The notes under the pieces are model-generated. The model was given only the letters and a program-made list of their open reading frames with translations, was not told the origin of the DNA and searched no databases. The position numbers were made by a program, and so were the translations under genes. From the NCBI GenBank assembly GCA_027023255.1, contig JALVVU010000114.1:1-37054 (forward strand): a stretch of 37,054 bases of DNA. Reading direction: 5' to 3'. Of this stretch, positions 818 through 4,296 are shown piece after piece. Every line of letters begins with the position of its first letter. Position 1 is the first letter of the stretch. This DNA comes from Desulfurococcales archaeon. GTDB taxonomy: Archaea; Thermoproteota; Thermoprotei_A; Sulfolobales; NBVN01.

Positions 818-1014
818 AGGACCCGCAAACTACATGCAACCTGCTCCTAGCTAAGAACGAAGTAAAGGTTTTGGTTCACCTAACTGACTGATTGCTAAAT
901 CCGCATTGCTAGATACTTATTCCCTAACCTAATCAAAGTATAAAACATATGCTCTCACCATCATAAAATTAAGAAGTGGTGGGGGGCACCCACACACTGG
1001 TAGCGGGGGGTGGA

Positions 1015-1792
1015 CTCTCACGGGCTGGTCGCTGGCCATCATATGTGGTACTTTCAACCTTTTAAATATTTTTTTCCTGGCCGATGATGGCTGAGATGGC
1101 AATTAGAGAATTGAAGATAACTTCATAGATTTTGCTCTTACTTTAAATCCCACCTTCTCGGCATACTTCAAAAGGTTCTGTTTCTTTGATATTACTAATC
1201 TGTAAGCTTTTCCGTGTATTATTTCATAAATGCAAGGTTTTATCCCGATAAATTCGAGTAACGTAGAAACATCTTTTAATCCCCTTAAATTGACTGAGGT
1301 AACAACAATTCTTTTTGTACTTGTATCAACATAAGCCTCATCGTCGAAAAACGCTCTCAACCAGTTAGTTACTAGAAGCTCATTATCGCTTAGAGTTTTG
1401 ATATTAATTCTCCAGTTCTTTGAAGACCCGGCGCCTAGGCTTGTTAATCTGTGGAAAGCATATCTTGATTTAAACCGTGCAATGTACGAATACTTGTTTT
1501 TCCGCCAAATAACAGTCGGAGAAGCGTTGTACGCATGCTTTGCATCGCTAACGAATTCCTCGATAAGGATTCGATTTTTATTCGTGTACTCAATCACATA
1601 TCTTGTTCCTCGTTCACCTTTCTCAGTATAAAGATGACCATCTCCGCATACATGTGCATGTATTCTAACTTCGCTAGCCGTTGCAAATCTACTTTGATTC
1701 GTAAACATCATTGCTATCCACGTTCTTTCCAGCGATATAAAATGTTCCATGATTAGCAAAAGAGAAATGGAGGGGGCCAGCGACCAGCCCGT
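1015..1792 (-). other. 778-nt BHB intron in the T loop (59/60), HEG-bearing
   Basis: The boundaries form a textbook archaeal bulge-helix-bulge. The outer helix is the T stem (GGTGG at 1803-1799 with CCACC at 1013-1009). The central 4-bp helix is TTCA (1798-1795) with TGAG (1020-1017), one T.G wobble. The 3-nt bulges are AAA (1794-1792) and AGT (1016-1014). The inner helix is a perfect 17-bp pairing of 1791-1775 with 1037-1021. Cutting after the second base of each bulge joins TTCAAA to T, restoring the universal 7-nt T loop TTCAAAT. The endonuclease gene fills 657 of the 778 nt. Position 59/60 is a known non-canonical site for small tRNA introns in Thermoprotei, but those are far shorter. Confidence 0.9.
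1103..1759 (-). CDS. LAGLIDADG homing endonuclease in tRNA intron 2
   Basis: A 218-residue protein with two LAGLIDADG-type helices: motif 1 around residues 33-42 (HAHVCGDGHL, acidic D40) and motif 2 around 133-142 (WLRAFFDDEA, acidic D139/D140). This is the single-chain pseudo-symmetric layout of archaeal intron endonucleases such as I-DmoI. Such enzymes cut intronless alleles so that the intron is copied in; some also act as RNA maturases. The gene lies wholly inside the T-loop intron: TTG at 1759 is 33 nt after the 5' splice site, and an in-frame ATG at 1750 is an alternative start. It is visibly more A/T-rich than the neighbouring housekeeping genes, which suggests transfer. The motif acidic residues are intact, so the enzyme may be active. 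Its target is inferred to be the uninterrupted T-loop region of iMet tRNA genes. Confidence 0.85.
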   Translation of the reverse strand: MLIMEHFISLERTWIAMMFTNQSRFATASEVRIHAHVCGDGHLYTEKGERGTRYVIEYTNKNRILIEEFVSDAKHAYNASPTVIWRKNKYSYIARFKSRYAFHRLTSLGAGSSKNWRINIKTLSDNELLVTNWLRAFFDDEAYVDTSTKRIVVTSVNLRGLKDVSTLLEFIGIKPCIYEIIHGKAYRLVISKKQNLLKYAEKVGFKVRAKSMKLSSIL

Positions 1793-1813
1793 TTTGAACC
1801 ACCGACCTCGGGC

Positions 1814-3177
1814 TCGACCCCCTTATGGGGGCGTGTCTCCGAGGCGGGCGGCCCGGCCATCTTGTAACTCGTATAGTCAGCTTATATACTTTCTGTGAAT
1901 TCTATTAATTCGGAAACTAATTATAAATAAACCTTATGATTTTGTCAATCACAGCAACTTTCTCTAAATTACGAGAGCGTGTGAGAATGTCTATTGCTTC
2001 CCTTAATGAATCCCTGCACTTTTCTGTGATTTTAACCATCACCCTCTTATGGCTCACTATAGGTTTGGGCTTCAATTCGCTGTGCTCGCCAAGCCAGAGG
2101 GTTCTTACCCTATCAAAGGCTTCACGTTGCAGGTATAATATCAATACCTTACTCCTCCGGGGCTCCTTTCTTCGCTGAATATACGCTGAGCTTGCAGTTG
2201 TTATCAAACGCTGAAGTTCTCCCACCGTAAATCCGCATTCATAGTTCTTAGCCCAGTTAAGCAAGTATCTCTGTAGCCGCGCCCTTCTGATAGGATGAAA
2301 TACTAATTCTAAACAGTTTCTAGCGAAATCCATTTTCAGGAACCTGAAGGAGACTTCATAATTTGGTTTCCCACGATATGTTCCAAGTACGATATATCCT
2401 CTTTGTTCGGTGTGTGTAAGGATAGAGTAAATCGTCCTCCCCTTTACGCTCCCTCCTTTAGCCACAGATACTGCAAGGTACTTTCCCTCCTTACCCACGT
2501 ATCCGTCTCCATCAATTAGACCCGCAAGTAAGGCAGAGATGTAGGTACTGTCAAGACCATGTAGGTCGAATTGCCGGGACACCAGTACGTGAAGTAATTG
2601 AAGCAGGCTATCACGTTGTTTATGAAAAATACCTTTGCTTAGGACGCTGATGCTAAAGTATCTTTTCTTCCCTCTGCTTTGAGGATAGATTCTCACTCTT
2701 AAGTAGGCGCGTAAGGGAAGGAAGGTCATTATCACCGCTATAGAGGTTTCCTTCGTGACACCCCTGAAAGTTATTGTTTTATATCCGCCAATCAGTGCAG
2801 AGAGATTCCCGTCACATAAGATTAGGCCAATGCTCTTCCATAGATACCTAGCCATAAGGTGAGGGCTGAGTTTATGATTATCATCATAAAACAAAGTTGG
2901 AGCATTATTTTTCTGAATGGACTCAAGGATATCACTAATCAGTTCTTTATCGAGGCTCCGAAGTCTAACGACCCTCTCCATACTTCCTAACGCTCCCATG
3001 TCTATAGGTAGCTTAATAAAGTGAGTGATAAAGTGAGTGTCTTTACTAATGACTATGTTCGGTTTACAATTAATATTGTGCGCTCTGACTAAATAATCTC
3101 AAAACTTAAGCAACTTGAGAGTCAGGAGAACGAAGTTAAAGGATGCGTGGGTGGTGCCGGGCCGCCCCGGGACCTCT
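1814..3177 (-). other. ~1.36-kb HEG-bearing intron in the anticodon region (boundaries approximate)
   Basis: The sequence between the two halves of the anticodon arm. Near its ends, 3168-3157 and the region 1846-1857 form a GC-rich helix of 11-13 bp (GGCGGCCCGGC with GCCGGGCCGCC). Next to it, GAGG (3176-3173) pairs with CCTC (1844-1841), flanked by TCC on one strand and GGA on the other, which is the 3-4-3 geometry of a BHB but offset from the expected exon ends. A second hairpin, CCCCC-ATAA-GGGGG (1831-1818), lies just before exon 2. One reading is a large intron plus a small residual or nested intron; another is a relaxed BHB. About 160 nt separate the 5' splice region from the endonuclease start at 2999, and I recognise nothing else in that stretch. 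Confidence 0.75.
1917..2999 (-). CDS. LAGLIDADG homing endonuclease in tRNA intron 1
   Basis: A 360-residue protein with two LAGLIDADG motifs: SIGLILCDGNLS (about residues 56-67) and LLAGLIDGDGYV (about 157-168). The second is close to the family consensus, with both acidic positions kept. It is longer than the minimal archaeal intron endonucleases (about 190-220 aa). The extra C-terminal region is basic and may bind DNA; its last 40 residues are predicted helical. Start ATG at 2999; an in-frame ATG six codons later is possible. The gene is contained in the anticodon-region intron and is oriented with the tRNA. It shares no obvious close similarity with the 218-residue enzyme in intron 2 beyond the motifs, so the two introns probably arrived independently. 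Confidence 0.85.
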   Translation of the reverse strand: MGALGSMERVVRLRSLDKELISDILESIQKNNAPTLFYDDNHKLSPHLMARYLWKSIGLILCDGNLSALIGGYKTITFRGVTKETSIAVIMTFLPLRAYLRVRIYPQSRGKKRYFSISVLSKGIFHKQRDSLLQLLHVLVSRQFDLHGLDSTYISALLAGLIDGDGYVGKEGKYLAVSVAKGGSVKGRTIYSILTHTEQRGYIVLGTYRGKPNYEVSFRFLKMDFARNCLELVFHPIRRARLQRYLLNWAKNYECGFTVGELQRLITTASSAYIQRRKEPRRSKVLILYLQREAFDRVRTLWLGEHSELKPKPIVSHKRVMVKITEKCRDSLREAIDILTRSRNLEKVAVIDKIIRFIYN

Positions 3178-3247
3178 TATGAGCCCCGCGGGCTGCCTGG
3201 CTACCCCACCCCGCTGCTTTGGCCCCCCGTTCTTTGTGGGGTTGTTT

Positions 3248-3257
3248 GGTTTTTAAG
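3248..3257 (-). promoter_or_regulatory. TATA-like box for the initiator tRNA gene
   Basis: On the minus strand this reads CTTAAAAACC, about 33-42 nt upstream of tRNA base A1 (3215), which would leave a leader of several nucleotides for RNase P to remove. It overlaps the stop region of the DUF1152 gene. Inferred from position and A/T composition only. Confidence 0.5.
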
Positions 3258-4296
3258 TTTTGGTGTCTTGCTCTATTGTGTGAATTACTGTTTTACGTGC
3301 TTCTTGCTTGGCTTTTAGCCAGTCTGGTTTTGCTTGGGGTCCTGTGCCGTATAGTTTCGCGATTGTTAGTTCTAGGTCGAGTTCCGTTACTATGCCTGCT
3401 TTGTGTGCGGCGTTAAGCATCTCGTTCAGCGTTTTAGTGTGTTTTATTGCTTGGGGTAGTACGGTGACCTCCATTACGGTGTCTGTTTTGAGTACGTAGG
3501 TTATGGGTGTGTGGGGGCCTATTCTGACGGTTCGGCTTCCTTCCCTTATGGCCACCTCACCTACCTCCCCTCTTAACGCGTGGTATGCTGCCTTACCTGC
3601 CTCGGTGGTTGCTTTTGGCAGGATTTCCTCGTATATTCTTAGGTGGTCGCGCCAGAGCCCGACCGCGCCTAAGTACCCTCCCCGCTTCATGACGTCCTCA
3701 ATTCTCCTGAGGACGTAGTCAGCCGGGAGCTCCCCGTCAGCCCCCGGAGCCAGGACCGCCACCGAGGAGTCGCTGAAGTGGGAGACAGCAGCGACGCTAA
3801 CCGCGTCAGCTAATGGGGACCAGAGGGAGGGCTCCCACCCCCTAGCTAGGACATCACCGCCAACATCCAGCGCCATCAAGTGCGAGTACCCGGCCTCCCT
3901 GACCTCCTCCAAGCACTCAACAACGCCTAAGACACCACCCTCCAGGGTGAAGGCAGGGATCTCACCACCGAAAACCTCCGCAACGACGGAGGCGTTAGGG
4001 CGGAAAACGTAGTTCCCAGGCCTCTCAACGTAAGTGTCCTTAGACACCCATACGCACTTACCTACCCTAGCACCCCTAATGGCGTCCTTAGGCACAGGCC
4101 CGGGGAACGGGTCCTTAACCCATCGCTCCCAAAGCAGCGCCACAGGAACGCAGGACTCAACCCCAAAGAGGTCCTCGAGAACCCTACACATAACGTAAGC
4201 AGAGATAATATCCCCAGCACCACCCGCACCCAACACAGCCACGCCCGAATCCCGAATCCTTGAAATGAATTCAGCCACACTCAAGCACCACGCCAA
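3253..4296 (-). CDS. DUF1152 domain protein
   Basis: A 347-residue protein of the DUF1152 family, which is widespread in Archaea and of unknown function. A glycine-rich loop near the N-terminus (VLGAGGAGDIISAY, about residues 20-33) looks like a nucleotide-binding turn. Further motifs are LEGGVLGV and MALDVGGDVLARG. The region near 210 (SVAVLAPGADGELP) also fits the family. The frame opens with TTG at 4296, but a TATA-like box at 4301-4310 would place the RNA start near 4280, so a leaderless start at TTG 4284 or GTG 4278 is at least as likely. The gene ends just upstream of the iMet tRNA and runs away from the proteasome gene. Confidence 0.75.
   Translation of the reverse strand: MAWCLSVAEFISRIRDSGVAVLGAGGAGDIISAYVMCRVLEDLFGVESCVPVALLWERWVKDPFPGPVPKDAIRGARVGKCVWVSKDTYVERPGNYVFRPNASVVAEVFGGEIPAFTLEGGVLGVVECLEEVREAGYSHLMALDVGGDVLARGWEPSLWSPLADAVSVAAVSHFSDSSVAVLAPGADGELPADYVLRRIEDVMKRGGYLGAVGLWRDHLRIYEEILPKATTEAGKAAYHALRGEVGEVAIREGSRTVRIGPHTPITYVLKTDTVMEVTVLPQAIKHTKTLNEMLNAAHKAGIVTELDLELTIAKLYGTGPQAKPDWLKAKQEARKTVIHTIEQDTKT

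Follow-up and report, generated by a model that had tools for sequence, protein, structure and literature searches.

A probably tri-split initiator tRNA gene with site-specific homing endonuclease genes in its gaps in a Desulfurococcales archaeon

Among the closest described systems to the one reported here are the recently split tRNA-Asp and tRNA-Lys genes of the Desulfurococcales, whose contiguous halves carry long G+C-rich arms and an internal promoter that predicts a transcription start 20 to 25 nt before the 3′ exon (PMC3218864). In Aeropyrum tRNA-Asp, an internal promoter lies within what reads as a contiguous "intron", and a northern blot showed two transcripts; Chan and colleagues proposed in 2011 that a viral or mobile element, which they did not name, acts at precisely the split position (PMC3218864). 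There is a long-running debate over how split tRNAs arose, either from ancestral halves or by the late action of some mobile element, and a candidate agent is now visible. In a heat-loving member of the same host order, contig JALVVU010000114.1 (assembly GCA_027023255.1; the 37,054 nt analyzed here are hereafter called the window) carries an initiator tRNA-Met (iMet) gene whose gaps, unlike those of tRNA-Asp and tRNA-Lys, hold identifiable site-specific LAGLIDADG homing endonuclease genes (HEGs). We consider it probable that this iMet is made from three transcripts and that the homing endonucleases are the splitting agents.

Other known systems resemble the window in part. The tri-split tRNA-Gly of Caldivirga maquilingensis likewise joins three pieces through bulge-helix-bulge (BHB) leaders (Fujishima 2009, summarized in PMC10714607), but it has scattered pieces and no reported endonuclease gene, whereas the window pieces lie in order with one LAGLIDADG gene per gap. 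The permuted or split iMet genes of Thermofilum pendens and Nanoarchaeum equitans are also broken at nucleotides 37/38 and/or 59/60 (PMC3218864), although no endonuclease is reported and the order in T. pendens is permuted. HEG introns of archaeal 16S and 23S rRNA genes (e.g., PMC4496867; I-DmoI type) place a LAGLIDADG gene in a BHB-bounded insert of an essential RNA gene; in contrast, the host gene here is a tRNA, the inserts have tRNA-type promoter signals, and one of the endonuclease families is often antisense to the tRNA. The group I intron of bacterial tRNA-fMet shares with the window the initiator anticodon loop as intron site and its invisibility to tRNA finders (PMC8450103). That intron is a ribozyme, whereas Rfam matched no group I or group II ribozyme core at E up to 1 across window positions 900 to 3400. 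Some cyanobacterial tRNA-fMet group I introns bear endonucleases. Our search of the open-access literature returned work on BHB motifs, rRNA introns, split tRNAs, and group I/II introns, and found no endonuclease-bearing archaeal tRNA gene.

The iMet gene runs on the minus strand from window position 3215 to 998, where four exons (Table 1) join to a complete initiator tRNA, AGCGGGGTGGGGTAGCCAGGCAGCCCGCGGGGCTCATAACCCCGAGGTCGGTGGTTCAAATCCACCCCCCGCTACCA. Outside the D loop, this sequence is identical to the intron-free iMet of G005, a genome from the same family. A sequence-only reading of this DNA had placed an iMet gene here, which this match bears out. The acceptor stem (7/7) and the T stem (5/5) pair fully, and the D stem has one G-U pair. 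The two introns of that reading correspond to the large inserts at 37/38 and 59/60, each with an intact LAGLIDADG frame (HEG1 and HEG2, respectively); it did not see a further intron, 20 nt long, at 39/40, and the large inserts probably separate split pieces rather than being introns only. As it had expected, tRNA finders overlook the gene: neither Rfam nor ARAGORN (with 3-kb introns also allowed) called a tRNA within the window, which accounts for why an annotation may lack an initiator tRNA. The search for another iMet that it had proposed found no second copy in the source assembly, a metagenome-assembled genome (MAG; 92.6% complete, 186 contigs), where the 5′ half and the middle piece have one match each and the 42 other tRNAs found include no CAU anticodon; the close relatives G001, G003, and G004 likewise gave no other match to either piece. 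The named close relatives are Desulfurococcales MAGs, and the same architecture recurs in two independent ones, G001 and G004, which rules out an assembly artifact and, together with the perfect 12- and 18-bp arms at the gap ends, argues against chance. We take the window locus to be the organism's functional and apparently sole iMet gene. Two other genomes, G046 (L116, L117) and G007 (L086, L087), have two iMet copies per assembly, unlike most relatives. The iMet 5′ leader GGGGGGC (window 3221-3230) and the 3′ trailer GCCCCCC (978-987) are able to pair, and other families have GGCGGGG and CCCCGCC around iMet, suggesting a conserved, covarying leader-trailer stem across the order.

All three interruptions have BHB-type junctions and, as in archaeal BHB tRNA introns, the exons join to a full tRNA; joining of the exons is strongly supported, and the inserts are predicted substrates of the tRNA splicing endonuclease. 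The 59/60 junction is a textbook BHB (GGTGG:CCACC and TTCA:TGAG with 3-nt bulges AA^A and AG^T, followed by the long arm; fold z, −11.5). At 39/40, the BHB takes its 5′ strand, CCTCGGAGAC, from the 3′ terminus of the 37/38 insert, and the four-pair helix covaries across ten genomes (AGAC:GTCG, AGAT:ATCG, GGAT:ATCC, GGAC:GTCC). If the 39/40 intron is not removed, G39 stands opposite G31 and the anticodon stem cannot form; all HEG1-bearing iMet genes with a known 3′ flank carry a mini-intron at this position. The 37/38 junction is a relaxed BHB (3-bp central helix) that is possible only once the 39/40 intron is gone: it uses the same bases as the 39/40 BHB and needs a contiguous CCCCG, and this structure therefore suggests that the 39/40 intron is removed first. 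The 12- and 18-bp arms are complementary G+C-rich leaders that form BHBs, as in split tRNAs. The joints of C. maquilingensis tRNA-Gly are reportedly the same two, 37/38 and 59/60.

A TATA-like word lies at −36 to −26 from the 3′ arm in 23 of 26 long gaps, compared with 5% (maximum, 15%) in slid windows, and a position weight matrix (PWM) trained only on tRNA promoters of the source genome peaks in the same interval (mean, 6.6 bits versus −0.9 ± 0.6 elsewhere). This spacing matches the host's real tRNA promoters, which lie at −36 from the mature 5′ end, and it is kept in inserts that are unrelated to one another, among them inserts with antisense HEGs and cases of obligate trans-splicing. Gaps added later had the TATA in 9/12 cases (control, 13%), two of the 12 being repeats of earlier sequences. 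The anchor was the longest contiguous helix, as weak extensions of gapped duplexes shift the arm start upstream; anchoring on the gapped duplexes themselves had given no signal (3/26, with about 2 expected), and the re-anchored result agrees with the PWM, which uses no word list. A pyrimidine tract follows the 5′ arm (0.67 versus 0.48). The evidence for a TATA at the right distance from each tRNA piece is strong across species and moderate in the window.

Gene order demands separate transcripts only in relatives whose iMet halves lie on opposite strands (G003, G012, G019, G047), where trans-splicing is obligatory, or on different contigs (G013, G024, G026), where it is very likely. In G003, of the same genus as the source, the 3′ part looks to have been inverted in place beside a gene of a third endonuclease family, HEG3. 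Given the promoter-like TATA ahead of each downstream piece, the pyrimidine tract that follows each upstream one, and the physical separation of the halves in relatives, the window gene looks like a tri-split tRNA gene still in order and not solely a cis-spliced 2.2-kb precursor; in the source genome, the pieces would be transcribed separately from promoters that fire, and joining would be mostly in trans. In one genus (G013, G024, G026 at L105, L107, L109; G020, G028 at L106, L108), iMet is split at 37/38 with no endonuclease, and the C-rich trailer that normally stands at the tRNA end follows the 5′ half rather than the 3′ half.

Across 214 genomes of the order, for which the counts depend on MAGs of mixed quality, three endonuclease families are each confined to one iMet position, and site-specific insertion is strongly supported. 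Relatives of HEG1 occupy 37/38 in 10 genomes (both flanks are seen in eight, only the 5′ half in two), with one weak match in a long frame elsewhere; 10 of the 11 strong matches to HEG2 are at 59/60; and each of the nine genomes with HEG3 has it at 30/31, mostly in antisense orientation to the tRNA. The proposal in the sequence-only reading that the anticodon loop and the T loop are specific target sites thus stands, and the fixed sites with empty counterparts in relatives match LAGLIDADG homing. Two HEG families share one iMet gene in six genomes (G000, the source genome, and G001, G003, G008, G139, and G141), so double occupancy is a recurrent arrangement. Broken HEGs (G001, G006, G008, G019, G140, G141) and a HEG-free mini-intron at 59/60 in G004 look like stages of a gain-decay-loss cycle, and near relatives with about 98% flanking protein identity differ in content, G003 being without HEG1 and G004 without HEG2. 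Elsewhere, the 37/38 gap is occupied by an antisense archaeal ATPase gene (PF01637) rather than an endonuclease (L129 437-1826, G092). The iMet gene at L179 (G147 C214) contains a number of short introns, including one close to the T/acceptor stem; a degenerate HEG2 relative is situated downstream of this gene and not within it.

We propose that two LAGLIDADG elements colonized iMet, HEG1 at 37/38 along with the 20-nt 39/40 intron and HEG2 at 59/60. Each would bring or keep a promoter upstream of the next piece, and a terminator-like tract would follow the piece before it; the promoters may be carried by the elements, or only insertions that gained one may have survived. Three short RNAs (nt 1-37, 38-59, and 60-76) would then be transcribed and paired by G+C-rich arms of 12 to 18 bp, rebuilding BHB substrates from which the tRNA splicing endonuclease and ligase would take out the 39/40 intron and then join 37/38 and 59/60. 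It is about an even chance that the principle is general, namely, that homing endonucleases split tRNA genes: three iMet-site-specific LAGLIDADG families would repeatedly insert with a promoter and turn an intron into separately transcribed pieces, loss or inversion would leave permanent trans-splicing, and the window would be a live intermediate with its three RNAs in tandem. The LAGLIDADG elements appear to fit the role of the mobile agent left unnamed by Chan and colleagues, and endonuclease genes with a promoter-like signal before the next piece suggest a clue to the origin of "split" tRNA genes. Within the order, iMet is found intact, with a short intron, with an endonuclease insert and promoter, with a broken endonuclease, with a mini-intron, and as inverted or dispersed halves; these graded states and the one endonuclease family per joint make the late-origin model directly testable. 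Selfish elements have here colonized the single tRNA on which translation initiation depends, and may have made its splicing ordered or trans.

The strongest competing explanation, which we regard as unlikely but deserving of weight, is that these are ordinary cis-spliced BHB introns carrying HEGs, as in archaeal rRNA, with a full-length precursor made from the iMet promoter and the internal TATA elements being leftovers or serving other transcripts. HEG-bearing BHB introns are classic for rRNA, a LAGLIDADG frame adjoins the 23S rRNA gene in the source genome, the window BHBs are valid in cis, and the sense-strand pieces are in order in the window, G001, and G004. Several results weigh against separate transcription and splitting by endonucleases. 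In the window, a single strand carries all the pieces and the two HEGs in order, which would allow read-through and cis-splicing; the stand-alone 37/38 junction favors a competing hairpin (−55.7 versus −48.8 kcal/mol for the BHB); three orthologous 59/60 gaps have their TATA at −46 instead; the TATA of the 37/38 gap (4.2 bits) scores lower than the majority of real tRNA promoters (median, 11.5 with the longer matrix), and a lone site of this kind can easily occur by chance; part of the sequences had been seen before the TATA words were listed, which does not affect the PWM test; and HEG1 and HEG2 identities between near relatives are consistent with vertical descent. Against cis-splicing alone stands the conserved placement of the TATA relative to the arm over unrelated inserts; arms of 12 to 25 bp and a pyrimidine tract after the 5′ arm resemble split-tRNA leaders, and the short introns of relatives are tens of nucleotides long.

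Whether the endonucleases are mobile is a separate question. HEG2 is a clear member of Pfam PF14528 (E, 8.6e-14; 52 bits, cutoff 22.5), and the acidic residues of its catalytic motif are invariant in a 47%-identical homolog. HEG1 scores 15.4 bits in Pfam, below the cutoff, yet has two LAGLIDADG motifs; its AlphaFold model (pLDDT, 83.6) gives PI-SceI, bI3 maturase, and I-DmoI as top Foldseek matches, with marginal E values (about 2e-3 to 2e-2) at a probability of about 1. Sequence searches of the PDB gave no significant match, and relatives of HEG1 and HEG2 were not found among viral contigs. Both proteins are predicted to be active homing endonucleases. Domestication, for example as maturases or splicing helpers, seems improbable to us: three species of the genus have an intact HEG1, whose divergence (identities of 96% and 91%) parallels that of the flanking proteins (98% and 94 to 96%), but the patchy presence of HEGs at near-identical flanks, the broken copies, and the HEG-free mini-intron all speak for mobility. 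Excess HEG identity as a mark of horizontal homing between near relatives was not seen, HEG identity being no higher than that of flanking genes. That the locus is a decaying mobile-element graveyard, with a working iMet unassembled elsewhere in the incomplete MAG, is very improbable, as the exons, BHBs, and promoter are all intact, no further match to the 5′ half or the middle piece was found in the four genomes searched, and relatives likewise keep only the disrupted gene.

Table 1. Features of the iMet locus in the window
Feature	Position	Strand	Basis
TATA/BRE of iMet 5′ piece, AAACTTAAAAACC	3248..3260	-	17.8 bits with host tRNA-promoter PWM, best site of the region
iMet exon 1, nt 1-37, anticodon CAU	3178..3215	-	matches intronless iMet of relatives
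37/38 insertion ("intron 1"), 1,343 nt, contains HEG1	1835..3177	-	homologous insertions in G001, G004, G021, G044, G137, G147, G149
5′ complementary arm of 37/38 insertion, GGGCGGCCCGGC	3156..3167	-	perfect 12-bp helix with 1846-1857
TATA-like TTTATTAAG, putative own promoter of HEG1, shortly 5′ of its start	3012..3020	-	read from sequence
HEG1, 360-aa double-motif LAGLIDADG protein (GLILCDGN, AGLIDGDG), frame open	1917..2999	-	
TATATAAG, putative promoter of middle tRNA piece	1881..1888	-	−31 from 3′ arm; 4.2 bits, weak
3′ complementary arm of 37/38 insertion	1846..1857	-	pairs with 3156-3167
Micro-exon AC, 2 nt, tRNA nt 38-39	1833..1834	-	joined sequence fits intronless relatives
39/40 intron, 20 nt	1813..1832	-	BHB in 10 genomes, covarying central helix; fold z, −4.08
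iMet exon, nt 40-59	1793..1812	-	match search and exon join
59/60 insertion (T loop), 778 nt, contains HEG2	1015..1792	-	homologous insertions in G001, G003, G006, G008, G139, G141, G143, G175, G176
5′ complementary arm of 59/60 insertion	1775..1792	-	perfect 18-bp helix with 1020-1037
TATA-like element, putative HEG2 promoter, before ATG ATG at about 1711	1734..1742	-	7.0 bits, tRNA PWM
HEG2, LAGLIDADG_3 protein, 218 aa (203 aa from inner ATG), frame open	1103..1759	-	
TATTTAAAAG, putative promoter of 3′ tRNA piece	1059..1068	-	−31 from 3′ arm; 6.9 bits
3′ complementary arm of 59/60 insertion	1020..1037	-	pairs with 1775-1792
iMet last exon, nt 60-76 (nt 60-73 plus encoded CCA)	998..1014	-	

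In the source genome's tRNA set, Rfam and ARAGORN did not find elongator Met, Ile-CAU, Trp, Lys-UUU, Gln-UUG, or Pro-UGG, some of which may be multi-intron or split genes. The frame beside the 23S rRNA gene (contig C22:17856-18053) is a further LAGLIDADG open reading frame of 156 aa that adjoins a 23S segment (L154 1034-1299, the 23S 3′ end) and probably belongs to a classic rRNA HEG intron. LAGLIDADG matches within frames of about 1,000 aa on contigs C82, C170, and C167 of the same genome look like inteins.
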